Assembly (NCBI GenBank): GCA_002166865.1
Contig: NHTQ01000006.1
Span: 1-64,000, forward strand
From: Rhodobacteraceae bacterium WFHF2C18
Lineage (GTDB): Bacteria > Pseudomonadota > Alphaproteobacteria > Rhodobacterales > Rhodobacteraceae
DNA length: 64,000 bases
Direction of reading: 5' to 3'
The notes below the pieces were generated by a model. That model had not been told where the DNA came from and did no database searches. It worked only from the letters and a program-made list of their open reading frames with translations. This document shows, one piece after another, positions 1,881 to 58,518 of the stretch (positions are counted from its first letter, which is position 1; each line of letters starts with the position of its first letter). The translations under genes and the position numbers were made by a program.

Positions 1881-2162
1881 ATGATCACGGCCGACGACAT
1901 CGAGGACATGACCTGCCTCACGCGCGAGGAGATCGCGGCGGTGGCCGAGCACGAGCACCTGCCGGAGGTGAGCGCGGCCCTGCTGGGCGACTACAAGATG
2001 CAGATCGCCAACGGCCCGCAGGAGGTGCAGCGCATGATCTGCGAGGATATCCGCGAGGCACTGCACAAGGGCGACAAGGCGCATGCCAAGGAGCTCTACG
2101 CGGTGCTGCACCACTTCATCGCCCAGCACCCCGAGGCGGTGCGGGGATCGGACGCCGGGTGA
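1881..2162 (+). CDS. Conserved-looking hypothetical, small acidic helical protein
   Basis: A 93-residue soluble protein, acidic and mostly helical, beginning MITADDIEDMTCLTREEIAAVAEHE. The ATG at 1881 is preferred over the in-frame ATG at 1860 because GGGAGG lies at the right distance upstream of it. I do not recognise a domain. The repeated Glu/Asp/His-rich helices could be a small regulatory or hemerythrin-like fold, but no diagnostic metal-ligand set is visible. It is a single gene upstream of a convergent operon. Confidence 0.5.
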   Translation: MITADDIEDMTCLTREEIAAVAEHEHLPEVSAALLGDYKMQIANGPQEVQRMICEDIREALHKGDKAHAKELYAVLHHFIAQHPEAVRGSDAG

Positions 2163-2449
2163 GGGCGCAGACCGCGCGCGGCTGGCAGGATGGGCCCGAT
2201 CCGGTTCCCGGCAGCCCGGGGTGAGCGGCGAAACGTGCTTTTCCACAGACGCGCCGGCGCGACACGGCCTATGGCTGGTGACGGATGAGGGGGCAAGGCA
2301 TGGCGCGGCGTTGCGCGCGTTCCTCGACCCGGCCGGACGCGAACGGGGGCAAGGCGCGGTTTTCCATCTCGATCCCGGGGCGCGGGCGCCCCGCCTGCCT
2401 GCCGGTGATGACAGAGGGCCGGGATGACGGGGCCCGCGCCGACGCGCCC
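2163..2449. other. Gene-free stretch with one hairpin
   Basis: No convincing coding sequence on either strand. At 2376-2393 there is a perfect 8-bp stem, CGGGGCGC-GG-GCGCCCCG. It may separate the upstream small gene from the convergent dehydrogenase operon that ends at 2450. Confidence 0.35.
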
Positions 2450-3340: not shown

Positions 3341-3351
3341 GGTCGCCTCCT

Positions 3352-4782: not shown

Positions 4783-4797
4783 GTGGGTCTCCGTGGG

Positions 4798-7084: not shown

Positions 7085-7096
7085 CTATGGTCTCCT

Positions 7097-12631: not shown

Positions 12632-12665
12632 CGTGCTCCTCCGGCTTTTCAACGGTTGCGCATGA

Positions 12666-12691
12666 CGCGCGGGGCCCGCAGGCCCCACGCG
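12666..12691 (-). terminator. Intercistronic attenuator hairpin after the binding-protein gene
   Basis: Between the binding-protein stop and the SDR start, an 11-bp stem (CGCG, one G-U pair, GGGGCC with a 4-nt loop) can form on the minus-strand transcript. There is no U-tract. Such hairpins after binding-protein genes commonly stabilise the upstream mRNA and lower downstream expression. Confidence 0.5.
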
Positions 12692-12704
12692 CCAGGGAGG
12701 ATCC

Positions 12705-13670: not shown

Positions 13671-13782
13671 GGTCTTTCCTCCCATAGGTTCATTGCGGCT
13701 GACTGCCTGCCGTCCTCCCGGCAGGGGACACCCCTTGGCAATGGGCGTACCATGCCGCCTTGGGCCGCCCGAATCGCGACCG

Positions 13783-13820
13783 AAAATATCCAATTTGAAT
13801 ATTTTGTGGTCCAATATGGA
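13783..13820. promoter_or_regulatory. Two tandem operator-like dyads in the divergent promoter
   Basis: In an AT-rich island inside a GC-rich region, the motif TCCA-N3-TGRA occurs twice: TCCAATTTGAA at 13789 and TCCAATATGGA at 13810. They are 21 bp apart, two helical turns. The first is extended by AAAATAT/ATATTTT arms into a near-perfect 23-bp palindrome (13783-13805). It lies between the binding-protein gene and the divergent regulator, the expected place for that regulator's operator. Confidence 0.55.
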
Positions 13821-13873
13821 TACAACGGGCATACTCGAACCCGCTCGATCTGAACATTCTGGCGGGACCATCC

Positions 13874-15697
13874 ATGAGCGATTCATCCAATTCGAACGAA
13901 CAGGACAAAGGGCGCGCGACCGTGACCGTCATGCCCGGAAAACCGATCCAATCCGGACAAGAGGCCGGATCAACGGCCGACGGCGCCTATGCCGCCAGCC
14001 GGGCCGAGATGCTGGGCGTGATCGGCTTTCTCGAGGCGGTTTCGACCGAGATCGACACGACGCTCGAACCCAACGCGCCGAACCCCTACCTGAACATGTC
14101 GCTGCACCTGTTACGCAGCCATCTCGAGGGCCGCACCGTGACCGCTTCCTCGCTGGTTTCGGTGGCGGGTGTGCCCTATGCCACGGCGATGCGAAAGCTG
14201 GGCGACATGCAGGCAGCCGGCCTGATCAAACAGCGCCCGCGCACCAAGAGCGGCAAGAGCTTTTCCCTGCACCCCAGCGCGCAGTTGATCGAAACCTGGA
14301 GCCAGCTGACCGACCGGCTGCAACGCATTTCGCACCAGACCTTCGGCAGCGCCGCGACGGCGGCTTCGGGCGACGACTACTATTTCGGCGGCTCCTACAT
14401 GGCCGCGCGCGGCACCATCCAGCCCCCGAAGGTGCTGCCGGATCCGCTGATGCTGCAAGGGGGGCTGCGCATCCTGGTGCACGGGGATCCGACCTTCATG
14501 GTCATGGAGAACCTCAAGCGCCAGTTCGAGCAGGTGATCGGCACGTCGATCAGCCAGCGCGCCTTCTCGATCGACCGCCTGCACGAAGAGGCCCTGCGCA
14601 ACGCCGAACGCGACAGCAGCCGTTACGACCTGATCGCGGTGGACCTGCCCTGGGTCGGCGAGTTCGTCGGCAAGGGCGTCCTGCTGCCACTGGACGAGGT
14701 GCTGGACCTCGACCGGCTGGATCCTGGCGATTTCCATACCGCGGGCTGGCGGGCGGCGCACTGGGGCGGGCGCCCCTACGGCGTGCCCAGCCAGACGACG
14801 CCGGAACTGCTTTTCTACCGCAAGGACCTTTTCGCGGAGGCCGGTCTTGACCCGCCCCGCAGCACCGGGGCCGTGCTCGAGGCCGCGCGCGCCTTTCACG
14901 ATCCGCGGCGCGGGCGGTACGGGATCGCCTGGAACGCGGCACGCGGAACGGCACTGGGCCATACCTTCATCATGACCTGTGCCGACTTCGGCCAGCCCAT
15001 CCTGAACATGAAACCGATCGCCGGAGGGTACGACGCGGATCACCTGGATCGCAACGACCTGGTCCCGCAGATCGATACCCCGCGCGCCCGGGCGGCGGCG
15101 GACTACCTGCTGGCACTGATGGAGTTCTCGCCGCCCGACATCCTGTCGATGTCCTGGTACGAACGGGTGCGCCCCTACGCGGCCGGCACGGTGGCCATGG
15201 CCTACGGTTACACGCTGCTGGCGCCCTATTTCGAGCTGGACCCGGCCTCGCCGGCCCACGGCAGGACGGGCTACCTGCCGCATCCCGCCGGCCCGGACGG
15301 CGCGCCGGTGGCCCCCGTCGGGGGATACGTGCTGGGCATTCCGGCCAACCTGCCCGCCGATCGGAAGTCGGCGGCGGCCGAGGCGCTGATCGCCTTCACA
15401 TCGCCCGAGGCGCAGAAGCTCTACGTGCTCAACGGCAGCCGCACCGCGCCGCGCTACTCGGTCGGGGCCGACCCGGAGGTACGGCGCCTGTCGCCCATAT
15501 TCGAGGCGGTCGACGCGATGAGCTGGCGCGACGAGCTGCAGTTCTGGCCCCGTCCGCCGGTGCCCGCCATCAGCGAGATCATCGCGATCTGCGGGGAGGA
15601 GATTCACGACATGCTCCGGGGCGTCACCGCGCCCGGGGAGGCGCTGCCGCGGGCCCAGGCGCGCGCCGAAGAGGCAATGCGACGATCGCAGACGTAG
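13874..15697 (+). CDS. Hybrid regulator: winged-helix domain fused to a family 1 solute-binding-protein domain
   Basis: A 607-residue protein with no signal peptide. Residues about 70-140 form a winged helix (SLVSVAGVPYATAMRKLGDMQAAGLIKQRPRTKSGKSFSL, with turn, recognition helix and wing). From about residue 197 to the end it resembles extracellular family 1 binding proteins (GGLRILVHGDP, VPSQTTPELLFYRKDLFAEAGLDPP, GSRTAPRYSVGADPEV). I infer a cytoplasmic transcription factor that senses the imported substrate with a domuesticated binding-protein fold. It is divergent from the ABC operon, with two operator-like dyads between them, and is followed by an SDR gene 20 bp downstream. Confidence 0.8.
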   Translation: MSDSSNSNEQDKGRATVTVMPGKPIQSGQEAGSTADGAYAASRAEMLGVIGFLEAVSTEIDTTLEPNAPNPYLNMSLHLLRSHLEGRTVTASSLVSVAGVPYATAMRKLGDMQAAGLIKQRPRTKSGKSFSLHPSAQLIETWSQLTDRLQRISHQTFGSAATAASGDDYYFGGSYMAARGTIQPPKVLPDPLMLQGGLRILVHGDPTFMVMENLKRQFEQVIGTSISQRAFSIDRLHEEALRNAERDSSRYDLIAVDLPWVGEFVGKGVLLPLDEVLDLDRLDPGDFHTAGWRAAHWGGRPYGVPSQTTPELLFYRKDLFAEAGLDPPRSTGAVLEAARAFHDPRRGRYGIAWNAARGTALGHTFIMTCADFGQPILNMKPIAGGYDADHLDRNDLVPQIDTPRARAAADYLLALMEFSPPDILSMSWYERVRPYAAGTVAMAYGYTLLAPYFELDPASPAHGRTGYLPHPAGPDGAPVAPVGGYVLGIPANLPADRKSAAAEALIAFTSPEAQKLYVLNGSRTAPRYSVGADPEVRRLSPIFEAVDAMSWRDELQFWPRPPVPAISEIIAICGEEIHDMLRGVTAPGEALPRAQARAEEAMRRSQT

Positions 15698-15717
15698 GAC
15701 CACCGAGGGAGGAAAGC

Positions 15718-16524
15718 ATGGACCCCAACCGCCTGAAGGGCAAGAACATCCTGATTACCGGCGCCGCCCAGGGCATGGGCGCCACCAACGCCGAGCATTT
15801 CGCCGCCCAGGGCGCAAATGTCTGCCTGGCCGACCTGGACCTGGACAAGGCCCAGGAGGTCGCGGACCGGGTCAACGACCGCGCGGGCGGCAAGGCCATC
15901 GCCGTGCGGACGGATGTGACCCAGCGCGCCGACAACGCCGCCGCCGTGAAGGCCACGGTGGACGCCTTCGGCACGATCAACGTGGCCCTGTTCAACGCCG
16001 GGCTGAACAAGCCGCGGTTCTTCATGGACATCGACGAGGACAACTGGGACCTCATCATGAACGTGAACACCAGGGGCATGTGGCTTGGCATGCAGGAGAC
16101 GGCCAAGCAGATGATCGCGCAGGGCAAGCAGGATTTTCCCTACAAGCTGATCTGCGTGGGCTCGATCGCCTCGCGCAAGCCGCTGGTGGACGTGACCGTC
16201 TATTGCACCTCGAAATACGGCTGCCTGGCGCTGACCCATTGCGCCGCGCTGGGGCTGGCCGAGCACAACATCACCGTCAACGGCTATGCCCCGGGCGTGG
16301 TGAAGACCCCGCTGTGGGAACAGCTGGACAAGGATCTGGTCGACATCGGCTTCAAGGAAAAGGAGGGCCAGGCCTTCGACGACATCGTCGACAACGAACT
16401 GGTGATCAAGCGCGTGTCCACCCCCGACGACGTCAAGGGCACGGCCGCTTTCCTCGCCAGCCCCGACAGCGACTACATGACCGGGCAGATGATCCATATC
16501 GACGGCGGCTGGTGCATACAGTGA
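15718..16524 (+). CDS. SDR-family dehydrogenase
   Basis: A 268-residue classical short-chain dehydrogenase: TGAAQGMGA for the dinucleotide, FNAG, a catalytic Ser in CVGSIAS and YCTSK. It is similar over its length to the SDR at 11834-12631, sharing the NKP-F-MD and DSDYMTGQ segments, so the two flank the locus as diverged paralogs. A GGGAGGAAAGC ribosome site precedes the ATG. It probably oxidises a polyol or sugar delivered by the divergent ABC transporter. Confidence 0.85.
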   Translation: MDPNRLKGKNILITGAAQGMGATNAEHFAAQGANVCLADLDLDKAQEVADRVNDRAGGKAIAVRTDVTQRADNAAAVKATVDAFGTINVALFNAGLNKPRFFMDIDEDNWDLIMNVNTRGMWLGMQETAKQMIAQGKQDFPYKLICVGSIASRKPLVDVTVYCTSKYGCLALTHCAALGLAEHNITVNGYAPGVVKTPLWEQLDKDLVDIGFKEKEGQAFDDIVDNELVIKRVSTPDDVKGTAAFLASPDSDYMTGQMIHIDGGWCIQ

Positions 16525-16534
16525 CCGCCCCCGC

Positions 16535-16554
16535 GCGGGCGATGCGTCGCCCGC
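16535..16554. terminator. Intercistronic hairpin
   Basis: A perfect 8-bp stem GCGGGCGA-TGCG-TCGCCCGC starts 11 nt after the SDR stop. There is no U-tract. It may partly separate the SDR gene from the M24-family gene 77 nt downstream. Confidence 0.4.
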
Positions 16555-16630
16555 CCGCGCCCCGAGACCCTGCAACCGCGAAACCGGAGACGGGCCGTGC
16601 CGGCCCGCCAAGCCTTTTGAGGAGCCACCA

Positions 16631-17929
16631 ATGACGTCCGCCCTGACACCCAACATCCTTACGCCCCAGGACCTCGACCCCCAGTGGAAATGGGAGGGCC
16701 GCCTTCCCGCCTGGGGCCACACATCGGTCGATTTCGAACGCCGCGTCGATCACGACCGCCTGCGCCGCTACCGCCTGAGCCGCACGCGGGAGGCGCTGAA
16801 GGCCTCGGACTGCGGCACGCTGCTGCTGTTCGACGTCAACAACATCCGCTATGTCTCGGCCACCAAGATCGGCGAGTGGGAACGCGACAAGATGTGCCGT
16901 TTCTGCCTGATGACCGGTGACGACGCGCCCTATGTCTGGGATTTCGGCTCGGCCGCGGTGCATCACAAGAAATACGCCGACTGGCTGATCGCCGACCACT
17001 GCCGCGCGGGCGTGACGGGCATGCGTGGCACCATCCCGCCCAGCGTGGGGCTGATCCGCAAGTACGCCGAGGAAATCGCCGGGCTGATCGAGGACGCGGG
17101 CATGAAGGACATGCCCGTCGGCGTGGACTATGCCGAGACGGCCATGTTCCACGCCCTGCAGGAGGCCGGGCTGAAGGTCGTGGACGGCCAGCAGATCATG
17201 CTGTCGGCCCGCGAGATCAAGAACTGGGACGAGATCCAGCTGCTCACGCAGGCCGCCAGCATGGTCGATGGCTGCTATCACATGATCTACGAGGAACTGA
17301 AGCCCGGCGTGCGGGAAAACGACATCGTGGCGCTGTCCAACAAGCTGCTCTACGAAATGGGCAGCGACGACGTGGAGGCGATCAACGCGATCTCGGGCGA
17401 ACGCTGCAGCCCGCACCCCCACAATTTCACGGATCGGTACTTCCGACCCGGCGACCAGGCGTTCTTCGACATCCTGCAATCCTACCAGGGCTATCGCACC
17501 TGCTACTACCGGACGTTCAACATCGGCCGGGCGACCTCGGCGCAGCACGACGCCTATACCAAGGCGCGGGAATGGATCGATGCCTCGATCGACCTGATCC
17601 GCCCGGGCGTTTCCACCGACACGGTCGCGCAGGCCTGGCCCAAGGCGGAGGAATTCGGTTTCCCCGACGAGCTTTCCGCCTTCGGCCTGCAGTTCGGCCA
17701 CGGCCTCGGCCTCGCGTTGCACGAGCGGCCCATCATCAGCCGGGCGGTCAGCCTTGAACACCCGATGGAGATCAAGACCGGGATGGTCTTCGCGCTGGAA
17801 ACCTATTGCCCGGCCGCCGACGGCTACTCGGCCGCCCGGATCGAGGAGGAGGTCGTGGTGACCGACACCGGCTGCGAGGTGATCTCGCTCTTCCCCGCCG
17901 AGGAGTTGCCGATCGCCAACCGCTACTGA
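16631..17929 (+). CDS. M24-family (creatinase/Xaa-Pro-peptidase-like) protein with incomplete metal site
   Basis: A 432-residue protein with a creatinase N-like domain (about 45-185) and a pita-bread M24 domain (about 190-432). Of the five usual metal ligands, Asp280 (AFFDIL), His357 (FGHGLG), Glu390 (FALET) and Glu405 or Glu406 (IEEEVVV) are visible. The second Asp is replaced by Cys291 (GYRTCYYRTF against the usual SDxxRTF). It may therefore be a non-peptidase member, like creatinase or the DMSP lyase DddP, but it also lacks the Asp pair of DddP. GAGG lies 8 nt before the ATG. It closes the plus-strand arm of the sugar/polyol locus; its reaction is unknown. Confidence 0.75.
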   Translation: MTSALTPNILTPQDLDPQWKWEGRLPAWGHTSVDFERRVDHDRLRRYRLSRTREALKASDCGTLLLFDVNNIRYVSATKIGEWERDKMCRFCLMTGDDAPYVWDFGSAAVHHKKYADWLIADHCRAGVTGMRGTIPPSVGLIRKYAEEIAGLIEDAGMKDMPVGVDYAETAMFHALQEAGLKVVDGQQIMLSAREIKNWDEIQLLTQAASMVDGCYHMIYEELKPGVRENDIVALSNKLLYEMGSDDVEAINAISGERCSPHPHNFTDRYFRPGDQAFFDILQSYQGYRTCYYRTFNIGRATSAQHDAYTKAREWIDASIDLIRPGVSTDTVAQAWPKAEEFGFPDELSAFGLQFGHGLGLALHERPIISRAVSLEHPMEIKTGMVFALETYCPAADGYSAARIEEEVVVTDTGCEVISLFPAEELPIANRY

Positions 17930-17938
17930 CACGACGGT

Positions 17939-17959
17939 GGCCCGGCCGGACGCCGGGCC
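17939..17959. terminator. Hairpin after the M24 gene
   Basis: A perfect 8-bp stem GGCCCGGC-CGGAC-GCCGGGCC begins 9 nt after the stop codon. There is no U-tract. It is the likely 3' end of the regulator-SDR-M24 transcript. Confidence 0.5.
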
Positions 17960-18169
17960 GCATTCGTGGCGCGCCCCCGGCGGGGGACATGCACCGCCGG
18001 AGTCTCGAACGGGAAACCGGGCCTGGATCACGGCGGGCATGCTGCGCCGTGGTCTCGCACGTGTCTCCCGTGCCTTGGCGTCCGGCAGGCATTGCGCAAC
18101 CGATCAACCGAGGGTCGCGGGAACACGGACGCCTTGGCGACCTTTTCGCGCTGGATCGCTGATGGCCCG

Positions 18170-19240
18170 TCACCGACGGTCCGGCGCCTTGGCGTCCGGC
18201 CCTTGCTGGTGCGGCGTGGCGGGCGGCGGCACCCCTTCGGCATCTTGCACGGGATCAAACAGCGCGACACGGCGGCGGCCCTGCATCTTGGCGGTGTAAA
18301 GCGCGCGGTCGGCATCGGCCAAGAGCTGGTCCATCTCCGGGTGCGCGTAGTCGCGGCTGAGGACCGCGCCGATGCTGGCCGATACCCGGCATTCCTCACC
18401 TTCGAAGGGGATCGGCGCCTCCAGACATCCGATGACACGCTCCGCGATGTCGACCAGCACCGGCCCCTCCGCGTGACCGGCGAGGATCACCACGAACTCG
18501 TCCCCGCCGACGCGCGCGATGGTATCGGCCCCGCGCATCTGACCGACGATGCGGCGCGCAACCTGCTGAAGAACGTGATCGCCGGCCGCATGGCCAAGGG
18601 AATCGTTGACGGCCTTGAAGTAATCGAGATCCAGGCTCATCAGCGCGAAATCCTCGCCCCGGTCGATCAGCCGGGTCAGCACATGGTCCATCGCCCGGCG
18701 ATTCTTCAGGCCCGTCAGCGTGTCGGTGAAGGCCTGCTCCTCGGCCGCGATCATTGCCCCCTGGAGCCGCAGGTTCAGTTTGCGCGACGCCTCCATCGCG
18801 GCGGACTTGGCCTCGAAAAGGTAGAGCATCTCGATCGTGGGGTCGGTCACCGCGAAATCCGAGCCGGTCAGGGCGAAGTCGCGCACCGCGTCGATGACCG
18901 AGATGCCGAAGCTCAGGTCGACCAGCGCGCCCCCGGACAGCGGGCCGCCGTCCTTGGGCAGCGCGATCAGGACCGCGGTGAGGTCGATCTGAGGTGGGGA
19001 CCGCATCCGCAGATGCAGGCGCGACCCGCTGGCCGCACGCAGCACCGCCATCGACGGGCCGATGCGGGGGCGGCGGATCTCGAACACCTCGGTGAAGCGC
19101 TGCCCCACCGGATCCTCCCGCCCCTGGATCTTGCGCAGGGTCGCACCGCACCGGAGGATGTGGCCGGTGCCGCTGACGACCGCGTGCATGGGGCAGAGCC
19201 GGTCAAGGCAGGCGGCGGGTATGGCAAGCGGACCAGTCAC
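18170..19240 (-). CDS. Diguanylate cyclase with H-NOX-associated (HNOBA-like) domain
   Basis: A 356-residue protein. The N-terminal part (about 1-170) resembles the HNOBA domain that follows H-NOX proteins, including LSFGISVIDAVRDFALTGSDFAVTDPTIEMLYLFEAKS. A short coiled region follows, then a complete GGDEF domain (TDTLTGLKNRRA, RVGGDEFVVILAGH), so it should make c-di-GMP. The start is a GTG at 19240 that overlaps the stop of the H-NOX-like gene as GTGA, which implies tight translational coupling. It probably receives the signal sensed by that partner. Confidence 0.85.
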   Translation of the reverse strand: MTGPLAIPAACLDRLCPMHAVVSGTGHILRCGATLRKIQGREDPVGQRFTEVFEIRRPRIGPSMAVLRAASGSRLHLRMRSPPQIDLTAVLIALPKDGGPLSGGALVDLSFGISVIDAVRDFALTGSDFAVTDPTIEMLYLFEAKSAAMEASRKLNLRLQGAMIAAEEQAFTDTLTGLKNRRAMDHVLTRLIDRGEDFALMSLDLDYFKAVNDSLGHAAGDHVLQQVARRIVGQMRGADTIARVGGDEFVVILAGHAEGPVLVDIAERVIGCLEAPIPFEGEECRVSASIGAVLSRDYAHPEMDQLLADADRALYTAKMQGRRRVALFDPVQDAEGVPPPATPHQQGPDAKAPDRR

Positions 19241-47221: not shown

Positions 47222-48685
47222 TCAGCCGCCGGCCGCGCGGCGCCCGGCGATCCGCCCCATCACCAGACAATTGGTCAGCGCGCCGCCACCGACGTAATCA
47301 TTGAAGAAGGCGTGCCCCGCCCCTTCGCCGGCCGCGAAGAGGCCGGGGATGACCCGTTCGTCAGCCTCCAGCACGCGCGCCGAGGTGTCGATCATCAGCC
47401 CGCCGAAGGTCAGCGTGACGCCGGGTGCCAAGGGATACAGCGCGTGATAGGTCGGCCCCTCCACGACGTGCGCGTAATCACTTTTCGGCGGCTCCAGCCC
47501 GTCCGCACGGCCCTCCTTGGCCGCGGCGTTGTACCGCGTGACCGTGTCTTCCAGCGCCTCGGGCGGGACCTCGATGGCGCGGGCCAGATCGGCAAGGCTG
47601 CCGGCGCTTTTCACGTCGATCCCCAGCCGGCGGAAGGTGCCGAGTGTCGATTCCGCGGCCGGAAGTTCCGCGATCTTTTCGTCGAAAACGAGCGCGGCGC
47701 GCTGGCCCGGCTGCTCAAGTACCGCCTTGCCGTGGGCGACGTAGCCGCGGGTTTCGTCGATGAAACGCTGGCCTTCCCGGTTCACGGAAATCGCGTGCGG
47801 CAAGAGCGAGAAGGGGTTGCCGGCGGCGGTCTCGACAGGATCCACGGCGGCCACGTGCAGGGCCATGACCCCGCCCATGCCTTTCCATCCGGCGCCCACC
47901 CCGCGCGCCATCTCCAGCCCGTCGCCCGTGGCCCAGGGCACGCCGCGCACCATCAGCGCGCCGGCATTGGGATCCGAGTAACTCTCCAGCAGACGGGTAT
48001 TGGCCGGGTACCCACCGGCGGCGAGGACCACGGCGGGCGCCGTCAGGTCGGCCACGCCCCCGGGTCCGACGACGCGAACCCCTTCGACCGAACCGGCATC
48101 GTTCATGACCAGATGCTGCGCCTTTGTCTCGAACCGGAAGCTTCCGCCACGTTCCTCGATCCGTGATCTGAGGTGGCGCAGCGCCCGCGGCATGCCCATG
48201 TAGAACCCCGGCGCGACCACCGCCATGACAACGTGGTAGGGGTCCACGCGCATCTCGTCGGTGAAGTCGATGCCGTGCTCGGCCAGCCAGGCCACGTCCT
48301 CGCGCGCGTGGGCCGCCATCACCTCGTAGAGGTCCGAGTTGCCGCGCCCCTGCGCCTTCTTCTCGAAGTCTTCCAGGAAGGCGGCGCGGGCCCCCTCCCC
48401 GGGGCCGGGCGGCATGGCGAAGCCGCCCCCCGCAAGCGCGGAGTTGCCGCCCATGCGCGCCTCGCGCGCCTTTTCCAGCACGCAGACCCGCGCGCCATCC
48501 TCGGCCGCCTGAAGCGCGGCAGCGCAGCCGGCCATGCCGGCGCCGACGACGACGACATCGAAAGCCTCCGTGCGTTCGGGCGCGGGCAGATAGCCGGCCC
48601 GCGCGGCGGTGGCCGACAAGCCCATGGCGCCCGCCCCGGTCAGGACGCCCCGCCGGGTCGGTCCCGGTCCCATGCGATGTGTCAT
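47222..48685 (-). CDS. Tat-exported FAD flavoprotein, fumarate-reductase/flavocytochrome c type
   Basis: A 487-residue FAD-binding-2 family protein with an N-terminal twin-arginine signal (PTRRGVLTGAGAMGLSATAARA). The FAD motif is VVGAGMAGCAAALQAAEDGARVCVLEKA, and the C-terminal GGGALTNCLVMGRIAG is typical of flavocytochrome c flavin domains. The substrate-site HPT-like motif of fumarate reductases is not clear (it reads ALHVAAVDP), so the acceptor is unknown. A tetraheme cytochrome is encoded 24 bp upstream and should deliver electrons; together they resemble a split periplasmic flavocytochrome c reductase. Confidence 0.85.
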   Translation of the reverse strand: MTHRMGPGPTRRGVLTGAGAMGLSATAARAGYLPAPERTEAFDVVVVGAGMAGCAAALQAAEDGARVCVLEKAREARMGGNSALAGGGFAMPPGPGEGARAAFLEDFEKKAQGRGNSDLYEVMAAHAREDVAWLAEHGIDFTDEMRVDPYHVVMAVVAPGFYMGMPRALRHLRSRIEERGGSFRFETKAQHLVMNDAGSVEGVRVVGPGGVADLTAPAVVLAAGGYPANTRLLESYSDPNAGALMVRGVPWATGDGLEMARGVGAGWKGMGGVMALHVAAVDPVETAAGNPFSLLPHAISVNREGQRFIDETRGYVAHGKAVLEQPGQRAALVFDEKIAELPAAESTLGTFRRLGIDVKSAGSLADLARAIEVPPEALEDTVTRYNAAAKEGRADGLEPPKSDYAHVVEGPTYHALYPLAPGVTLTFGGLMIDTSARVLEADERVIPGLFAAGEGAGHAFFNDYVGGGALTNCLVMGRIAGRRAAGG

Positions 48686-48709
48686 GTGGTTTCTCCTCCT
48701 GGCTGTTCG

Positions 48710-49039
48710 TCAATCGAGCGTGAACTGGAACCCCCTATGGCAGAACCGGCAGGTCACCTCGGACGGCGCGTGCACGCGGTGGCAACTCGTGCAATCGGGC
48801 GCCTCCTCCGCGGCAAGGTGCGGCGAGTGATGCGGATCGGGATGGTCGGGCACGGGCCCGGCCGTCATCGTGCCGTGACAGGCCAGGCAGGGTGCGTTTC
48901 CCGGATCCCGGGGCGCCTTCTCGGCGTGGCAGTCCGCGCAATCGACCCCGGCGGCAACGTGATGATCCAGCAGGTCCTGTGCCGCGGCGGCGCCGGCGAA
49001 CACGAAAAAACAGGCGAGGATCGCGACGAAGCTGCGCAA
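48710..49039 (-). CDS. Periplasmic tetraheme cytochrome c
   Basis: A 109-residue protein with a signal peptide (LRSFVAILACFFVFAGAAAAQ) and four CxxCH heme sites (CADCH, CLACH, CTSCH, CRFCH), plus many extra His residues for axial ligation. It resembles the heme domain of flavocytochrome c and small c3-like cytochromes. The start is probably the TTG at 49039, eight nt after GAGGAGG; the frame is open further upstream. It is paired with the flavoprotein downstream. Confidence 0.85.
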   Translation of the reverse strand: MRSFVAILACFFVFAGAAAAQDLLDHHVAAGVDCADCHAEKAPRDPGNAPCLACHGTMTAGPVPDHPDPHHSPHLAAEEAPDCTSCHRVHAPSEVTCRFCHRGFQFTLD

Positions 49040-49132
49040 ACCGATGGCCTCCTCCCTCAGACCGGTCTTGCCCGCAGTATCCGCGATTCGGACGGGCGCG
49101 GCATTGACGGCCGACATCGCCGCCCGGCCGGC

Positions 49133-50107
49133 TCAGCGCACCGGGGCGGCCAGCAGGGGCAAAAGATGCGCCTCGAAGAGCCTGTCCACGCCCTCGCGGT
49201 TCAGGTGATCGGTGTCGAAGAACAGAGCCGGGTCGTCGAAGGCGGCGGACAGGTCATGGAACGGGACGCCGCGGGCATCGAGGCGCCGGCGCAGCTCGGC
49301 CTGGAAGGCGGCGGTGTCCGGCAGGGCCTCGCGGAAGTGGGCGGGCAACGGCAGCCGCAACGCGACGACACGGATGCCGCGCGCCTGCATCGCGTCCACG
49401 AAGCGCGTGAAGGACGCCAGAGCAGGCCGCGCCTGCGCGATCCCGGCCCCTTCGGGGTAGAGATACTCGATCCGGCTTTGCACGGCATGGCGCGAGGGCC
49501 GCGCACGCCGGTCGAAGGCGGCCGCGCCCTCCCAGCCGCCGGTTTCGAAGCGCCGGGGCGGGTTCAACTTGGAAAACGCCGTCAGGTAATCGGCCAGGGC
49601 GGACGGGGCCACCCCTTCGCGGAGGACCATCCCTGCCATGAGCCGCGCGGTGATGGCGCGCAGGGGCGTGCGGCGCAACAACGTGCGGTCCTCCACCCGC
49701 CCGGCGTTCCAGTCGCGCGCCTGGAAGGCGAAGGGATCGACGATGTAGAGAACGCTGGCCGGCCGCACGTCCCGCACCGCCTGCCGCGCCACGAAGGCGG
49801 AATAGACCGGGCCGGCTCCGACATCGGCCAGGACCAGCATGCTCTGGCCCGTCCGCCGCTCAAGCCGCGCGGGAACATCGCCGTAGGCCAGCGGCAGCGC
49901 ATGAGAGGCCCCCAGCACGATCCAGTCCACCTGGCGGCCCCGGTTGGCCAGCAGTTTCTGGAACGCGCTTTCCTGGCCCGCGCGACCGACGTGGCGTTCC
50001 GCGACCACCGCCAAGGCGGCGTAGAGCAGCAAGAAGATCGCGACGAAAAGGATGACGCCGCGCCATGTCAGCCTGTCCCGGGAAGTATCGTCGCGTTCCA
50101 TGTCCAT
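49133..50107 (-). CDS. AlgJ/DltD-like membrane-anchored SGNH protein
   Basis: A 324-residue protein with one N-terminal membrane segment (LTWRGVILFVAIFLLLYAALAVVAE) and a periplasmic domain. GASHALPL supplies a candidate nucleophile and DTDHLN a DxxH-type dyad near the C-terminus. This is the layout of AlgJ/AlgX and DltD, the partners that finish transfer of an acyl group moved across the membrane by an MBOAT protein. It begins 2 bp after the MBOAT gene. The acyl acceptor is unknown; no polysaccharide genes are nearby. Confidence 0.72.
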   Translation of the reverse strand: MDMERDDTSRDRLTWRGVILFVAIFLLLYAALAVVAERHVGRAGQESAFQKLLANRGRQVDWIVLGASHALPLAYGDVPARLERRTGQSMLVLADVGAGPVYSAFVARQAVRDVRPASVLYIVDPFAFQARDWNAGRVEDRTLLRRTPLRAITARLMAGMVLREGVAPSALADYLTAFSKLNPPRRFETGGWEGAAAFDRRARPSRHAVQSRIEYLYPEGAGIAQARPALASFTRFVDAMQARGIRVVALRLPLPAHFREALPDTAAFQAELRRRLDARGVPFHDLSAAFDDPALFFDTDHLNREGVDRLFEAHLLPLLAAPVR

Positions 50108-50109: not shown

Positions 50110-51540
50110 TCAGAACTGCATGTAGACGAAGGCTTCGCTCTGCCAGCGGCCGAGCAGGATCAAGGCGAAGATGGCCGCGTACCATCCCGCCCAGCGGATG
50201 GCGCGGGGTGCCGCCACCAGCCGTGTCCGGGCGGCCGGGATCTCCTGCAGGGTTTCCACAAGCAGCAGCCCGGCGATGAGCGCCACCAGGAAGGCGTGTT
50301 CGGCGCCGAAGGGGTAATTCCCGACAAGGCCCGGCAGGCGGGGGAGGTACGCGCCGATCCGTTCCAGAACCACCAGCGCATCCGCGATGTCCCCGGCACG
50401 GAAGAAGACCCAGCTGACCAGGACGAGGTGGAAGACGACGACCCCGGCAAGCACGGCGTGCCCCCGGCCCTTCCAGCTGCCTTTCCACCGCCGCTTGAGC
50501 CGGCGCCGCCATGGCCGGACCCCGCGTTCGGCCCACAGATAGAGACCGTTGAGCGCCCCCCAGGCCAGAAAGCCCCAGCCGAAGCCGTATCCCAGCCCCG
50601 CGTGCCACAGCCCGCTGACGAGGAAGACCAGCATCAGCCCGGCATACATCCGCAGCATCGACTGGCTTTCGTTGACGAAGGGGTAATACACGTAGTCGCG
50701 GAACCAGTCCGACAGCGAAACGTGCCAGCGCCGCGACCAGAATTCGCCGATGGAGGTGGCGAAGTAGGAGCGTCGGAAGTTCTCGCTCAGGTCCACCCCG
50801 AACAGGCGGGAACTGCCCCGCGCGATATCGGTATAGCCCGAAAAATCGCAGTAGATCTGGAAGGCGAAGAAATAGGTCGCCAGGATCAGGTCCATCGGCA
50901 CCGCGTAGTCGGGGATGGCATAGGTGCGGTCGACGAAGGGCGCGAGGTTGTCGGCCACCACCACCTTCTTCACGAGCCCCCAGAGGATGAGCTGGCCGGC
51001 ACTGGCCAGCAGACGCGGATCAAGGCGCGGGGCGCGCGCCGTCTGGTCCGCGAACGGCTGGACGCGTTCGATCGGCCCGGCCAGGATCTTGGGAAACCAT
51101 GCCAGGAACAGCAGATCGGTGCCGGCCGAGGCGCGCGTTTCCGCCGGCTGGCGGTAGCGGTCGGCCAGCAACGCGATGGCCGTGAAGGCGTAGAACGAAA
51201 ATCCCGCCGGCGCGTCGAACCCCGCAACCGGCAGCGGCGGCAGCGCCTCGGCCACCGGATCGTGGTACTTGAGCAGGTACATCAACCCGAGGATGGCGAT
51301 CGTCCCGCCCCAGAAGGCCAGGTGCCGCAAGCCCGCCTCGGGCCGCAGAAGCCAGCGCCCCGCCATGAGCGCGATGGCCGCCACCGCCGCCAGGGCCAGC
51401 AGGTGACCGACCCCGTAGCTCGCGTAGAACAGAAAGCTTGCCAGCAGCACCACCGGCAGGCGAAGGCGTGCCGGCACCGCGTGGAACAACAGGGCCACCG
51501 CCGGCAGAAAGAGCAGGTAATCGAGCGAGTTGAACAGCAT
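50110..51540 (-). CDS. MBOAT-family O-acyltransferase (AlgI/DltB type)
   Basis: A 476-residue polytopic protein starting MLFNSLDYLLFLPAVALLF as AlgI proteins do. The core is KILAGPIERVQPF, CDFSGYTDIARG, FWSRRWHVSLSDWFRDYVYYP and LVSGLWHAG with the invariant His313. Such proteins carry acyl groups from a cytoplasmic donor to a periplasmic acceptor. It is 18 bp after a monoheme cytochrome gene and 2 bp before the AlgJ-like gene, inside a redox operon. An acyl-activating ligase and a carrier protein lie on the other side of the regulator. Confidence 0.88.
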   Translation of the reverse strand: MLFNSLDYLLFLPAVALLFHAVPARLRLPVVLLASFLFYASYGVGHLLALAAVAAIALMAGRWLLRPEAGLRHLAFWGGTIAILGLMYLLKYHDPVAEALPPLPVAGFDAPAGFSFYAFTAIALLADRYRQPAETRASAGTDLLFLAWFPKILAGPIERVQPFADQTARAPRLDPRLLASAGQLILWGLVKKVVVADNLAPFVDRTYAIPDYAVPMDLILATYFFAFQIYCDFSGYTDIARGSSRLFGVDLSENFRRSYFATSIGEFWSRRWHVSLSDWFRDYVYYPFVNESQSMLRMYAGLMLVFLVSGLWHAGLGYGFGWGFLAWGALNGLYLWAERGVRPWRRRLKRRWKGSWKGRGHAVLAGVVVFHLVLVSWVFFRAGDIADALVVLERIGAYLPRLPGLVGNYPFGAEHAFLVALIAGLLLVETLQEIPAARTRLVAAPRAIRWAGWYAAIFALILLGRWQSEAFVYMQF

Positions 51541-51558: not shown

Positions 51559-52098
51559 TCAGTAAGAGGCACCGCCCGCGCGCAGCTCCGGCGGAATCTG
51601 GTCGATGGGTATGCCGGCGTTCAGCGTCAGGTAATCCGCCAGAAGCTGCCGCTCGGTCTCGGTCACGTCGATCTCGATGTGGCTGGGCGAGTTCATGGTG
51701 CCAAGCCAGGCCTCCGGCGAGCGGTCCTGGGTCACGACCACCGTGACGATGTGGCACGACTGGCAAAGATCGAGGGTCATGTCGCGCCCGTCGCGCGGCA
51801 GATCACCTTCCGGATCGAGGGGTGCGTAGGCTTCAAGGTATTCGGCCAAAGTGGCGGCGTCCCACTGGTCCAGGTCCGTCCCGTCCAAACGCGTGCGCCA
51901 GGTCGCGGCCGTGGCCTCCTCGGTGCGGATGGACTTTGCCAGATCCCCCGGCAAGCCGTCGTCCTGCCACCGTTCCAGGATCGTTCGGCCGCCGTCGGGA
52001 ATGAAGGAAAAGACGTCACTTTGCTGGGCCAGCGTCATGCCGCCCCACACAGCGGCGGCGAGCGCCGCACCGGTGAGCGCCGGGCGATATGGTATCAT
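51559..52098 (-). CDS. Periplasmic monoheme cytochrome c, paralog A
   Basis: A 179-residue protein with a signal peptide (MIPYRPALTGAALAAAVWGGMTLAQ) and one heme site CQSCH at residues 112-116. A Met at 135 (WLGTMNSPSH) is placed to be the axial ligand. The C-terminal half aligns with paralog B at 52123-52677 (W-GT-SP-H-EI and IPPELR against VPPELR). It probably moves electrons in the periplasm between the exported dehydrogenase and another carrier. Confidence 0.78.
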   Translation of the reverse strand: MIPYRPALTGAALAAAVWGGMTLAQQSDVFSFIPDGGRTILERWQDDGLPGDLAKSIRTEEATAATWRTRLDGTDLDQWDAATLAEYLEAYAPLDPEGDLPRDGRDMTLDLCQSCHIVTVVVTQDRSPEAWLGTMNSPSHIEIDVTETERQLLADYLTLNAGIPIDQIPPELRAGGASY

Positions 52099-52122: not shown

Positions 52123-52677
52123 TCAGAACCGCAATTCCGGCGGCACGTCCTCGATCTCCAGCGGCATGTTGAGCGCGGAGTAATTTGCGAAGGTGTCGCG
52201 CTCGACCTCGTTCATCGGGATCTCGGAATGGAACGGCGACTTGAAGGTACCCTTCCAGCCCGTCTCGTCCCGGTCGTGCATGAGATACCCGGTGAACAGC
52301 GAATGGCAGAACTGGCACTGCTGGATCGCCAGATCCTTGCCGTCGGGCGGCAGCAGCGCGGGATCGCCCGTCTGCGCGAGATCCTTCCGCGCTTCTTCGG
52401 GAAGCGGGAAATTGAGCGCCGCGTAGCCCGCGAAGGTTTCGGCCGCCGCAGGGTCCAGCTCCGGGGCTTGCCGGCGCGCCCAGTCCGCCCAGGCCGTTCT
52501 GTCCCGATCCCGGCCGGCGATTTCGGACAGCGTCTTGCCGTTCTCCGCCACGAGCTGCCCGGTCAGAAGACCGCGCCCGCCGGGCGGCATGAAGTCGTAT
52601 GTGTCCTCCTGCGCGACAGCCGCACCCACGCCGGCGAGGCCGATCGCGGTTGCAAGTCCCAGATCACGCCTTGTCAT
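52123..52677 (-). CDS. Periplasmic monoheme cytochrome c, paralog B
   Basis: A 184-residue protein with a short signal peptide (MTRRDLGLATAIGLAGVGAAVAQ), possibly Tat-like, and one heme site CQFCH at residues 121-125. It is clearly paralogous to the downstream cytochrome, but Phe145 replaces the candidate axial Met, so its heme ligation or potential probably differs. Its start lies inside the end of the zinc-finger gene (14-nt overlap). Confidence 0.78.
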   Translation of the reverse strand: MTRRDLGLATAIGLAGVGAAVAQEDTYDFMPPGGRGLLTGQLVAENGKTLSEIAGRDRDRTAWADWARRQAPELDPAAAETFAGYAALNFPLPEEARKDLAQTGDPALLPPDGKDLAIQQCQFCHSLFTGYLMHDRDETGWKGTFKSPFHSEIPMNEVERDTFANYSALNMPLEIEDVPPELRF

Positions 52678-52963
52678 CGCCTTGTTCCTTCTGCGTTCGC
52701 GGCAGCCTGAAAACCGGCACGGTCATCTCGCGCCGGGCGCCGTCCGGCGGAAAGCCGGTGCCGCGCAGCGCATCGAGCTGCATGGCCACCTCGTCCGACA
52801 GGAAACGCTCGCCACAGGCCGTGCAGACCATCGCCGGCACGTCCTCGACCACCACCAGCCGCTCGTCTTCCCACAGCGCGCTCTGGACCCGGCGCCCGGC
52901 CAGTTCCCCCGCCCCGCACATCTCGCAGCGCAGGGCCTCCTCGGCCCCGCGCTGCGGCGGCAT
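52664..52963 (-). CDS. YgiT/MqsA-type zinc-finger protein
   Basis: A 99-residue protein with the CxxC...CxxC zinc ribbon of the YgiT family (RCEMCGAG, about 30 residues, VCTACGERF). The antitoxin MqsA has this domain, but no mRNA-interferase gene is next to it and no C-terminal helix-turn-helix is evident. The ATG at 52963 lies 8 nt after the E1 beta stop. Within this operon it could be a metallochaperone or a regulator; that is speculation. Confidence 0.65.
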   Translation of the reverse strand: MPPQRGAEEALRCEMCGAGELAGRRVQSALWEDERLVVVEDVPAMVCTACGERFLSDEVAMQLDALRGTGFPPDGARREMTVPVFRLPRTQKEQGDDKA

Positions 52964-52970: not shown

Positions 52971-53939
52971 TCAGACAAGGGCACGTGCGGCCTCCGCCAC
53001 GTTCTCGGGTCCGGGACGCATCCACAGGAACATCTCCGGCGAGGCCGGCGGCGGGGCGTCGGGGAAGGCCACGCGCTTGACCTTGACGCCCTCGACATTC
53101 TCCACCGACCGCGCGATCACCTCGGCGCCCGGGCAAAGCGTGTAGTAGGATTGGTCGACCGTCAGCAGCCGCTTGGTCTTGCTCACGGAATTGACGATGG
53201 TCTCGGTGTCCATTTCCGTGAGCGCGCGCAGGTCTATCACGTCCGCCGCGATCCCCTCGGCCGCCAGCGTCTCGGCCGCTTCCAGCACCCCGGGCATGCC
53301 CGCGCCGGAACTGACGATCGTCAGGTCGCCGCCCTCGCGCCGCACGGCGGCCTTGTCCAGCGGCACCTCGAAGGGGTCGTCGGGCACCTCCTCGGTCAGC
53401 GTGCGCAGGCCGGCGGGATAGAGATAGACCACCGGATCGCGCGAGCGCAGGGCAGCATGCATAAGCCCCTTGGCATCAAAGGGCGTGGAGGGAATGACCG
53501 TCCGCACGCCGGGGATGTGCATGTAGTAACTGTCCTCCTCGTAGCAGGAGTGCTGCTGCGCGAACCCGGGGGTCTGGCCCGTCATCTCGATGATCCAGAC
53601 CACGGGCATCTCGGCCCGGCCGCCGGTCTTGTGGCGCAGCTTGGCCGCGACGTTCTGGATCACCTGGAACGGCATGCACGACCCCTGGTAGGGAATGTAC
53701 GTGGCCGACCGCGAGCCCGCCAGGCCCGCCCCCAGCACCGCCGAGGCCATCCAGTTCTCGTCGATCCCGGTGTTGACCACGCGCTTGCGGCCGAACTCGG
53801 TCTCGAGGTTGATGACCGGCTTTCCGGGGTTCGAGGCCACCGGCGGCGTCAGTTCGAAGATCCAGGTCATGGCCGGGTCTTCGCGCATTTCGTGCTGGAC
53901 CGCTTCCAGCACCGAATACATCCAGCTCTTCATCGCCAT
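52971..53939 (-). CDS. ThDP-dependent dehydrogenase E1 beta subunit, partner of the Tat-exported alpha subunit
   Basis: A 322-residue transketolase-like beta subunit (pyrimidine-binding and C-terminal domains). It includes MSAVLEAVQHEM-like helix at the start, TYIPYQGSCMPFQVIQNVAAKLRH, VVWIIEMTGQTPGFAQQHSCYEEDSYYMHIPG and VIDLRALTEMDTETIVNSVSKTKRLLTVDQS. It has no signal peptide of its own, so it would have to be exported as a folded complex with E1 alpha. It is diverged from the E1 beta at 6089-7084. No E2 or E3 gene is in this operon. Confidence 0.82.
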   Translation of the reverse strand: MAMKSWMYSVLEAVQHEMREDPAMTWIFELTPPVASNPGKPVINLETEFGRKRVVNTGIDENWMASAVLGAGLAGSRSATYIPYQGSCMPFQVIQNVAAKLRHKTGGRAEMPVVWIIEMTGQTPGFAQQHSCYEEDSYYMHIPGVRTVIPSTPFDAKGLMHAALRSRDPVVYLYPAGLRTLTEEVPDDPFEVPLDKAAVRREGGDLTIVSSGAGMPGVLEAAETLAAEGIAADVIDLRALTEMDTETIVNSVSKTKRLLTVDQSYYTLCPGAEVIARSVENVEGVKVKRVAFPDAPPPASPEMFLWMRPGPENVAEAARALV

Positions 53940-53969
53940 CTGTCTGTCCTTTCCTGCTGGTCGCCCGGG

Positions 53970-55181
53970 TCAGCCGAACTGCCGCGGCGGCACGGTGCCT
54001 TCCACGAACACGTTCTTCAGGCCGTCCTCGGGCGTGCAAAGCGGCTGCGCGAGCCCCCATTCGAAGGCTTCGGCGATCTCTGCCTTGACCTCTTCCTCGA
54101 TCTCCCGGGCGCGGGCGGTATCGACCACGCCCCAGTCCACCAATATCTTGCGCGCGATATCCACCGGGTCGCGCTGCATCCAGGCGCGCAGTTCCTTCTC
54201 GGGGCGGAAATGGGTGATCGCCAACGGATCGTAACCGAAGGCGCCCAATTCACCGGCCTTGGCGCCCGGGGCGCCCCAGTGGTTGTAGTACCTGTAGGTC
54301 TTGGCCTCGATGAAGCTGGGGCCCTCGCCGGCGCGGGCGCGGTCCACCGCCTCCTTGGCGGCATTGTAGACCTGCACGACGTCCTGACCGTCGACCGTGC
54401 GGGCATGCACGCCGTAGACGCTGGCCGCCTCGGCGATGTCCACGTGCGGGCACGACAGCGAATAGTGCGCGTACTGGTGATAGAGGTTGTTCTCCATCAC
54501 GTAAATGAGCGGCAGATCGAGCAGCGCGGCGTTGTTCATCGTGGAATGGAAATGCGGCGCGGCATAGTTGCCGTCGCCGGCGAAGACCACCGCCACCTGG
54601 TCCGAGCCGCGGGCCCGCATGGCGAAGGCCGAACCACTGGCGATCACCGGCGCGGGGCCGATCATCCCGTCGGCCCCGGCGAAGCCCACGTCGGGATCGG
54701 CGATGTGCATCTCGGCCCCGTAGCCGCCGTTCATGCCGGTGCTGCGGAAATCCATCTCGGCCACCATCTTCGGGATGTCCACGCCCTTGGCGATGGCATG
54801 GCCCGAGGGACGGTGCGAGGAATAGGCCAGGTCGACCTGGTCGCGCGCGCCGGTGTTGCGCAGGGCGGCGCAGACGCCCGTGGCCACCGCCTCCTGCCCG
54901 GCGTAGAAATGGTTGTAACCCCGGTAGTCGGGGTTTTCGAGCATCTGGTCCGCCTGGGTCCGTTCGTGCCACCGGATCCGCAGGATCGTGCGGTACATCT
55001 CGATCAGCTTCTCGTTGCTGAGTTCGCGCGCCGCGAAGGGCACCTCGGACAGGGCACCGGCCTGGCGCCCGACCGACACAGCCGCGCCCGTCAGGGCGGC
55101 GAGTTTCAGAAATCCGCGGCGAGAGCGTGATTCAGGCACGTCGTCGGGCTCCCGTTGCGGGATCGTCGCATCATAGTCCAT
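53970..55181 (-). CDS. ThDP-dependent dehydrogenase E1 alpha subunit with twin-arginine signal
   Basis: A 403-residue E1 alpha. The ThDP motif spans GDG (202-204) to NN (231-232), and HFYAGQEAVATGVCAAL and AYSSHRPSGHAIAKG are family blocks. Uniquely, residues 20-26 read SRRGFLK, an exact Tat consensus, followed by the hydrophobic stretch LAALTGAAVSVG and AGA as a possible cleavage site. Folded, cofactor-loaded export fits the Tat route. The gene leads the operon that continues with E1 beta and c-type cytochromes, so electrons may pass to heme rather than lipoamide. The substrate is unknown, probably a 2-oxoacid. Confidence 0.85.
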   Translation of the reverse strand: MDYDATIPQREPDDVPESRSRRGFLKLAALTGAAVSVGRQAGALSEVPFAARELSNEKLIEMYRTILRIRWHERTQADQMLENPDYRGYNHFYAGQEAVATGVCAALRNTGARDQVDLAYSSHRPSGHAIAKGVDIPKMVAEMDFRSTGMNGGYGAEMHIADPDVGFAGADGMIGPAPVIASGSAFAMRARGSDQVAVVFAGDGNYAAPHFHSTMNNAALLDLPLIYVMENNLYHQYAHYSLSCPHVDIAEAASVYGVHARTVDGQDVVQVYNAAKEAVDRARAGEGPSFIEAKTYRYYNHWGAPGAKAGELGAFGYDPLAITHFRPEKELRAWMQRDPVDIARKILVDWGVVDTARAREIEEEVKAEIAEAFEWGLAQPLCTPEDGLKNVFVEGTVPPRQFG

Positions 55182-55277
55182 GAGTCTCCTCCCAGGTCTC
55201 GCGCGGCATGCCGCGCGGTCCGTTGCCGGCGGGATCTCGTGCCGGCGCCTTCAGGATGCGCCCCGTCCGAGGCGGCG

Positions 55278-56093
55278 TCATTGACGGCGGACAACGCCCC
55301 ATTGCCCGACCGGGTGTCCAGCCGGCGCCGGTTTTGTGACCTGCGTGCGTGGGCGGGCCGGCGCCCGGCGCGGGGAAGCGCCGAGGGCGACCTCCTGGGG
55401 ATCGAGGCGGGCCATTTCGCACATCTTGGCAAAGTTGCGGATGCGGTATCTGTCGCGGCCCAGGCTTTCCAAGTCCCCGGATTCGTTGAGCGCGCGCACC
55501 GTGCGGCTGATGGTTTCGGGCGTCGTGTCAGAGATGTCGGCCCAGTCGCGTCTCGGCAGGCGCATGGTGATCACGCAGCTGCCATCGGGCAGATGGTCCA
55601 CCGGCATGAAGCGCGTGGACAGCAGCAGAAAGGCGATCACGCGCTCGCGGCTGCCCAGCCGGCCGCGCAGCCAAATGAGCTCCTGAACGCGGGCAAGCTG
55701 GGCCGCGGCATCGCGAATCAGCTGCCGTCGCAGGCCGGGATCATCCTGAAGGCCTGCTTCGAGACCGCGGGAATCGGTCATGCACAGGACGACCTCCGTG
55801 ACCGTCTCCAGCATGTGATCGATCCTCCGGCCCGGCAGGCCGCCGATCAGGTCGCCGGGGCGTGCAACACCCAGCCCCCTGCGCTGACCATCGGGACCGA
55901 AGCGCATGAGCCGCATGTAGCCGCTGCGCAGAACGCCGAACCGGCAGGGGCGGTCGCCCTCGTAGAAGAGGGTCGTGTCCGGCGGCAGTCGCAGGATTCG
56001 CAGATGGGGAAGCACGCCGAGGCGACACGCGCCCCGGACCCCCAACCAGCAGCGCGCGCAGACCGATTCACAAGGTGCCGCTTCGCTTGTCAT
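55278..56093 (-). CDS. FNR-type (Crp/Fnr family) oxygen-responsive regulator
   Basis: A 271-residue regulator. The N-terminal cysteines Cys12-x2-Cys15-x7-Cys23 and Cys104 match the spacing of FNR/FnrL proteins that hold an oxygen-labile 4Fe-4S cluster. The cAMP-binding-type barrel is followed by a helix-turn-helix with recognition helix PETISRTVRAL, the E-xx-SR pattern that reads TTGAT half-sites. Such boxes occur in the divergent intergenic region at 56394 and 56435. It lies 96 bp upstream of the exported E1 operon on the same strand and is its likely regulator. Confidence 0.85.
   Translation of the reverse strand: MTSEAAPCESVCARCWLGVRGACRLGVLPHLRILRLPPDTTLFYEGDRPCRFGVLRSGYMRLMRFGPDGQRRGLGVARPGDLIGGLPGRRIDHMLETVTEVVLCMTDSRGLEAGLQDDPGLRRQLIRDAAAQLARVQELIWLRGRLGSRERVIAFLLLSTRFMPVDHLPDGSCVITMRLPRRDWADISDTTPETISRTVRALNESGDLESLGRDRYRIRNFAKMCEMARLDPQEVALGASPRRAPARPRTQVTKPAPAGHPVGQWGVVRRQ
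55281..55294 (-). promoter_or_regulatory. FNR-like dyad upstream of the exported E1 operon
   Basis: On the minus strand the sequence is TTGTC-CGCC-GTCAA, one base from the TTGAC-N4-GTCAA form. Its centre is about 106 bp before the E1 alpha ATG. It directly follows the stop of the FNR-type gene, so it could serve the operon's own promoter. Confidence 0.4.
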
Positions 56094-56497: not shown

Positions 56498-58272
<1,775 letters not shown>

Positions 58273-58276
<4 letters not shown>

Positions 58277-58518
58277 CCGAAGAGGAAATCTACCGGCTGT
58301 TCGTCGAGGAACTGACCCGGGTCGCCCCCGACATCGACGCCGAAACGGTTGGGCCGGACGAGCATCTGCAGGAGGATCTCGATCTGGACTCGATGGATAT
58401 CGTCGCCCTGGTCTCGGCCCTGCATCGCCGGCTCGGGTTCGAGATCCCCGAGGCTGACTACCGGCAACTGGAAACGCCGGCCAAGGCGGCCGCCTACCTG
58501 GCGCGCCGGCAGGCATGA
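58273..58518 (+). CDS. Dedicated acyl carrier protein
   Basis: An 81-residue carrier protein with the phosphopantetheine site at Ser40 in [11 protein letters not shown] and the usual four-helix length and acidity. The ATG overlaps the ligase stop. Paired with an acyl-adenylating ligase, it recalls DltC with DltA; the MBOAT and DltD/AlgJ-like proteins needed to complete such a path are encoded at 49133-51540. Confidence 0.88.

Follow-up and report, generated by a model that had tools for sequence, protein, structure and literature searches.

An operon on the minus strand, running from position 55181 down to 49133 of the 64,000-nucleotide window (the whole stretch of DNA that was analysed), encodes an E1 alpha with a predicted twin-arginine (Tat) signal, together with E1 beta, two single-haem cytochromes and an MBOAT-SGNH acyltransferase pair. 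ThDP dehydrogenases of the E1 kind are classically cytoplasmic or mitochondrial and are tied to lipoyl E2 and E3. Judging from the sequences, we put at roughly 0.6 the probability that this operon specifies a periplasmic ThDP-dependent 2-oxoacid (or acyloin) dehydrogenase, which would deliver electrons to its own cytochromes and the acyl group to the MBOAT-SGNH pair, these partners replacing E2 and E3. The core of this reading, an exported E1 working with cytochromes, has the same probability.

Organization of the seven-gene operon

The seven closely spaced genes follow the order Tat-E1 alpha, E1 beta, YgiT-type zinc ribbon, CYT1, CYT2, MBOAT and DltD-like SGNH. These genes and their flanking features, in window coordinates, are listed below with the basis of each assignment.

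55186 to 55190, minus strand: AGGAG ribosome-binding site, 4 bases 5' of the E1 alpha ATG (sequence reading)
53970 to 55181, minus strand: E1 alpha, ThDP-binding, 403 amino acids, ATG start, N-terminal Tat signal (open reading frame and Pfam)
55053 to 55181, minus strand: predicted signal peptide, E1 alpha residues 1-43 (motif and site reading)
55104 to 55124, minus strand: twin-arginine motif SRRGFLK, E1 alpha residues 20-26 (read from the translation)
52971 to 53939, minus strand: E1 beta, 322 amino acids, without a signal (Transket_pyr and Transketolase_C matches)
52664 to 52963, minus strand: YgiT-type zinc ribbon with two CxxC, about 99 amino acids, start uncertain (TIGR03831)
52123 to 52677, minus strand: CYT1, secreted single-haem (CQFCH) protein, 184 amino acids (motif and N-terminus)
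51559 to 52098, minus strand: CYT2, secreted single-haem (CQSCH) protein, 179 amino acids, paralogue of CYT1 (motif and N-terminus)
50110 to 51540, minus strand: MBOAT (DltB-like) acyltransferase, 476 amino acids, C-terminal FVYMQF (domain and motif)
49133 to 50107, minus strand: membrane-anchored SGNH (DltD-like) protein, 324 amino acids, with S67, D297 and H300 (alignment and model)
55278 to 56045, minus strand: Crp/Fnr-family regulator directly upstream of the operon (domain matches)
55281 to 55294, minus strand: weak FNR-like box TTGTCCGCCGTCAA (3 mismatches to TTGAT-N4-ATCAA)
56498 to 58276, plus strand: divergently oriented acetate--CoA ligase, an optional neighbour (NF003313 at 840.9 bits; cut-off, 729)
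58273 to 58518, plus strand: acyl-carrier-protein (ACP)-like, 81 amino acids, optional neighbour (45 bits, under the 71-bit cut-off)

A tblastn search that used the operon proteins of nine loci as queries recovered all seven genes, in one order and on one strand, in each of the 44 loci that extend at least 6.9 kb beyond the E1 alpha start. The set includes two duplicate copies of contigs already counted, which leaves 42 distinct loci; L105, on the opposite strand and outside this count, also shows the seven genes. The median intergenic gaps along the operon are 30, 3, -4, 28, 27 and 8 bp. The unity of the operon is thus well supported by sequence comparison.

The sequence-only reading had named c-type cytochromes as the genes next to E1 beta and had proposed a genome search for Tat-bearing E1 alphas beside CxxCH proteins. 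The linkage is indeed fixed, with two cytochromes in all 52 testable loci, but it is the zinc ribbon that directly follows E1 beta, and the cytochromes come after it. The earlier gene list also overlooked this zinc ribbon, present in 55 of 55 testable loci and as strictly linked as the enzymes, as well as the MBOAT-SGNH pair. Both are linked as strictly as the cytochromes and have to figure in any explanation.

The same reading had stated that E2 and E3 are absent, which holds for the surroundings of the operon. A lipoyl E2 encoded with E1, the mark of a 2-oxoacid dehydrogenase multienzyme complex, was found neither among the operon genes nor among the conserved neighbour families of 58 clustered neighbourhoods, and a search of the operon genes found no E3. 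The window as a whole does contain E2-like genes, which lie with an ordinary E1 alpha/beta at 2450-8101 (minus strand), so a cytoplasmic-type complex is also encoded there. One of these genes is of the lipoyl type (4798-6099) and one resembles an E2 catalytic domain (2450-3355), with an aldehyde dehydrogenase (3352-4782) between them; the genome thus has E2-like genes outside the operon.

Conservation of the Tat signal in two E1 families

The window's E1 alpha matches Pfam E1_dh at 7.2e-48 and retains GDG...NN; against the PDH E1 alpha model it reaches 222.9 bits (cut-off, 393.85). In an alignment of 26 rows, consisting of the window protein and rows picked from 120 listed close homologues, G202-D203-G204, N231-N232 and H301 are invariant. 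Of the 57 called E1 alphas, 56 contain GDG-NN and one, a 177-residue contig-end fragment, does not; a wider pattern test recovers the loop His in 55 of them. E1 beta, described earlier as having no signal, begins where solved E1 beta chains begin and has no space for one. Its E60 and H129 occupy the canonical catalytic Glu/His positions and are invariant in 16/16 rows; with a wider pattern, this pair is found in 53 of 55 betas, both exceptions having mis-called starts. By fold, ThDP motif and catalytic residues, the two proteins belong to the 2-oxoacid dehydrogenase E1 alpha/beta family.

Tat signals were called by motif patterns and site reading. The SRRGFLK of E1 alpha, whose position and letters had been given correctly, is followed by a hydrophobic, uncharged stretch and by a small-x-Ala site near residue 43, which would be the cleavage site; these are the sequence features of a Tat substrate, and TatC is encoded in the genome. 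R21, R22 and F24 are invariant in all 26 aligned rows while residues 2-17 ahead of them vary, which argues that the signal is more than chance. It had been conceded that export would fall if all homologues started past the Tat-like segment. The homologues do not show this pattern. Among the 120 listed close ones, RRx[FLIVM] occurs by residue 60 in 117 (the strict form in 109); the remaining three, short proteins of 342, 374 and 368 residues, start beyond the motif. At the DNA level, the motif is in frame in 52 of the 55 close-family loci (54 fetched relatives plus the window) and takes the form [ST]RRxF in 43; the remaining three loci start within the E1 alpha gene at a contig end, leaving 52 testable. 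The control set comprised 55 other E1 alphas of related genomes, among them the second one encoded in the window and the best PDH-type match in the genome; none of them has a strict or Tat-like motif.

Among 295 genomes of the same family, nine, counting the window's own, have close E1 alpha relatives, and one intermediate scored 304 bits (L088, L102). This intermediate opens a sister family, about 40% identical to the close family, in which 113 of 120 listed homologues have a loose Tat motif in the first 70 residues (strict in 44); the seven listed proteins without it are 332-372 residues long. The RR is followed, 14-34 residues on, by a small-x-Ala site in 114 of the 117 close-family proteins that carry it and in all 113 such sister proteins. 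A tree of 84 E1 alphas, computed with the signal removed, groups the two Tat families in a single clade (100/99) that is separate from the 55 others; three rows of this tree bore an incorrect label. These sequence data support Tat targeting as a conserved property of the whole clade. Export of the E1 complex from the cytoplasm is well supported in the same way and would presumably take place in vivo; if so, E1 beta, having no signal, would be a hitch-hiker.

The sister-family operon is known from one genome, the other sister members being proteins without context. In that single locus, L102, the same seven genes stand in the same order as in the window. The identities are 39% for E1 alpha, 41% for E1 beta, 36% for the zinc ribbon, 42% for MBOAT and 35% for SGNH, while the cytochromes resemble the window's only weakly (21-32% across the haem half; E-values, 4e-5 to 0.17). 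The L102 operon is surrounded by other genes, at 263-4505 and 12264-18384, among them a TRAP transporter, an aminotransferase, a BKACE (beta-keto acid cleavage enzyme), an aromatic amino acid lyase and FAD- and FMN-dependent oxidases. The part shared with the window is therefore the seven-gene set, and the L102 neighbours may point to a substrate different from pyruvate. Occurrence of the close family is patchy: it was found in 4 of 60 relatives, window included, and in one of 398 genomes across the phylum, namely the window's own, and by record title the 54 fetched loci fall in alpha- and betaproteobacteria. Cultured carriers include Rhodosalinus halophilus, Roseovarius marisflavi and Ramlibacter lithotrophicus. 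The plasmid collection gave no match for either Tat family.

Candidate redox and acyl partners and competing explanations

CYT1 and CYT2 each have one CxxCH, followed by an invariant His and Trp, and N-termini that look Sec-like by eye. They give weak cytochrome c matches at the Pfam level, and none of the 120 listed CYT1 homologues (138 in all) has a precomputed Pfam domain. The predicted CYT1 model (pLDDT, 91.9) found no confident match among solved structures. Both proteins look like two cytochrome-like halves, with CxxCH kept in the second half only. The zinc ribbon scores 48.4 bits against TIGR03831 (cut-off, 20.2). It looks cytoplasmic and plays no part in the models proposed here; a task as export chaperone or as regulator is conceivable.

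In the MBOAT, H272 and H312 are invariant, the C-terminal FxYxxF is present in 44 of 45 proteins (AIYMQF in L058), and SG[LI]WH[AG] is present in 42 of 45. The nearest solved structure is DltB (profile match, 1.2e-31), and the score against the DltB model is 136.3 bits, with a cut-off of 375. The SGNH protein has a membrane helix and weak Pfam matches to the SGNH, DltD and ALGX families. Its S67, D297 and H300 are invariant in 25 rows; of 43 called genes, 39 have GxS[HR] and 42 have DxxHL, and those that lack a motif are short or truncated calls. For its predicted model (pLDDT, 92.8), DltD is nearest by Foldseek, and other SGNH hydrolases score equally in a second look. Together, the MBOAT His with FxYxxF and the SGNH Ser with Asp-His place the two proteins in the MBOAT-SGNH family. 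As PMC12148441 describes, acyl transfer to the SGNH partner runs through the tyrosine of FxYxxF, which is part of PatA itself and, in the Dlt system, of DltX.

The Crp/Fnr-family gene upstream is likely to be the regulator of the operon. The window's FNR-like box is no better than shuffled sequence (not significant). Across the family, 20 of 52 loci have an FNR-type box with at most one mismatch within 350 bp upstream of the start, for the most part at a distance of 70-180 bp, compared with 0.1 expected from base-shuffled sequences and 1 in 148 segments inside operon genes. In part of the family, this suggests that expression may be linked to low oxygen. Many loci have Hsp20, CBS, universal stress, hibernation factor, nitroreductase and alternative ATPase genes as neighbours (mostly named by eye), and the Hsp20 and PHB depolymerase-like genes of the window were matched by profile, both below curated cut-offs; such neighbourhoods look like low-oxygen or stress islands. 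Adjoining the operon at 47222-49117 (minus strand) is a Tat-like (TRRGVLTG) FAD protein of the flavocytochrome c/tricarballylate dehydrogenase type, below curated cut-offs, accompanied by a tetrahaem c3-like cytochrome. Both lie outside the conserved seven-gene set and are possibly a second periplasmic redox pair.

According to the mechanism we propose, E1 alpha and E1 beta would assemble and bind ThDP in the cytoplasm, and the twin-arginine signal on alpha would export the folded complex, with beta hitch-hiking. In the periplasm, E1 would decarboxylate a 2-oxoacid, our first guess being pyruvate or another short 2-oxoacid, or alternatively would cleave an acyloin. The two cytochromes would oxidise the ThDP-bound carbanion, one electron each, in place of lipoamide and E3, and the DltB/DltD-like pair would handle the remaining acyl group in place of E2; the acyl group may move inward, outward or to a periplasmic acceptor. 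The operon may thus cover all three tasks of the classical complex, decarboxylation, electron transfer and acyl transfer, with E2 and E3 replaced. A cytochrome as acceptor makes chemical sense because E1 without E2 can pass electrons to the artificial acceptor DCPIP, yielding acetate, as reported in PMC2663715. In this mechanism, export in vivo, the hitch-hiking, the E1 substrate, the electron transfer to the cytochromes and the coupling of the acyl pair to E1 catalysis are our inferences.

The best-surviving rival, which we nevertheless judge rather unlikely, is that the MBOAT-SGNH pair moves an acetyl-like group outward, taking it from cytoplasmic acyl-CoA or acyl-ACP and placing it on a lipid or polymer of the envelope. 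E1 and the cytochromes would then be a co-regulated low-oxygen electron source that does not feed the acylation. The known MBOAT-SGNH pairs described in PMC12148441 all run outward and end on a polymer, and the SGNH fold is nearest to DltD. A relative of the acetate--CoA ligase was found in the fetched flank of 9 of 58 searched sequences (8 distinct), and the same counts apply to the ACP, with both present in 7 distinct loci; where they occur, they resemble Dlt-type outward loading, so the acylation task need not use the E1 product. However, they are missing from the fetched flanks of most loci, and the linkage of MBOAT-SGNH, E1 and cytochromes, which holds without exception in the 42 distinct loci and also in the divergent sister operon, would be odd for unrelated tasks.

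The same observations bear on a more specific form of the periplasmic dehydrogenase, a trans-membrane 2-oxoacid dehydrogenase in which the acyl group would pass from E1 to the SGNH serine, then to the MBOAT tyrosine and finally to cytoplasmic CoA or ACP, with electrons going to the cytochromes. The outward direction of the known pairs, together with the ligase and the ACP near 8 distinct loci each, counts against such an inward relay, and we regard it as doubtful. If it were true, acyl-CoA would be gained without substrate import, by an MBOAT-SGNH pair running inward.

Less plausible still is an exported E1 that acts as an acyloin synthase or cleaving enzyme, through C-C bond formation or non-oxidative decarboxylation, while the cytochromes serve another partner. 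E1-type ThDP enzymes are capable of such reactions, and some homologues go under the name acetoin:DCPIP oxidoreductase alpha subunit in one source, but the two cytochromes are present in every testable locus and no other obvious redox partner is encoded in the operon. Finally, a cytoplasmic E1, as E1 enzymes otherwise are, with an unused Tat-like N-terminus or a start codon set too far upstream is very improbable given the ribosome-binding site at the upstream ATG, the invariant RR and F beside a variable n-region, the retention of the signal through a clade split at about 40% identity, and operon partners that have signal-like N-termini or are MBOAT-SGNH envelope proteins.

Relation to known systems and implications

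The periplasmic dehydrogenase that we favour resembles pyruvate and branched-chain 2-oxoacid dehydrogenase complexes in its E1 alpha/beta folds (by sequence), GDG-NN and catalytic Glu/His positions, whereas its operon adds a Tat signal, cytochromes and MBOAT-SGNH and has no lipoyl E2/E3. The known acetoin dehydrogenase E1 (acetoin:DCPIP oxidoreductase) is an E1-type enzyme that passes electrons to a dye in assays; it is cytoplasmic and works with E2/E3, which the window operon does not encode. PoxB and pyruvate:ferredoxin oxidoreductase also oxidise pyruvate with ThDP and hand electrons to a carrier other than lipoamide, but their architecture differs, with flavin or iron-sulphur carriers and a cytoplasmic or membrane-peripheral location.

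DltB-DltX-DltD, PatA-PatB and AlgI-AlgX (PMC12148441) share the MBOAT His, the C-terminal FxYxxF and a membrane-anchored SGNH Ser-Asp-His with the pair described here, which in the loci examined is always beside a Tat-signal E1 and cytochromes. It differs from the Dlt system in carrying the shuttle motif on the MBOAT itself, and the ligase and ACP expected for D-alanylation occur in only 8 distinct loci each, the ligase being of the acetate type. The Tat hitch-hiker PaoABC offers a parallel for the export step, in that one signalled subunit would carry unsignalled partners; PaoABC is a molybdoenzyme (PMC4273604), whereas the window enzyme is of the ThDP type. In the portion of the literature that our search reached, no published report of an exported E1 was found. 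E1, MBOAT, SGNH, zinc ribbon and cytochrome c are all known families; their assembly and predicted location appear to match no known kind.

If the periplasmic dehydrogenase is real, oxidative decarboxylation would also occur beyond the cytoplasmic membrane and feed electrons into respiration at the level of cytochrome c; alternatively, an old enzyme would have been recruited for an envelope acylation route. Under either reading, the operon would provide a new entry point into respiration or a new acyl source or sink at the cell surface.
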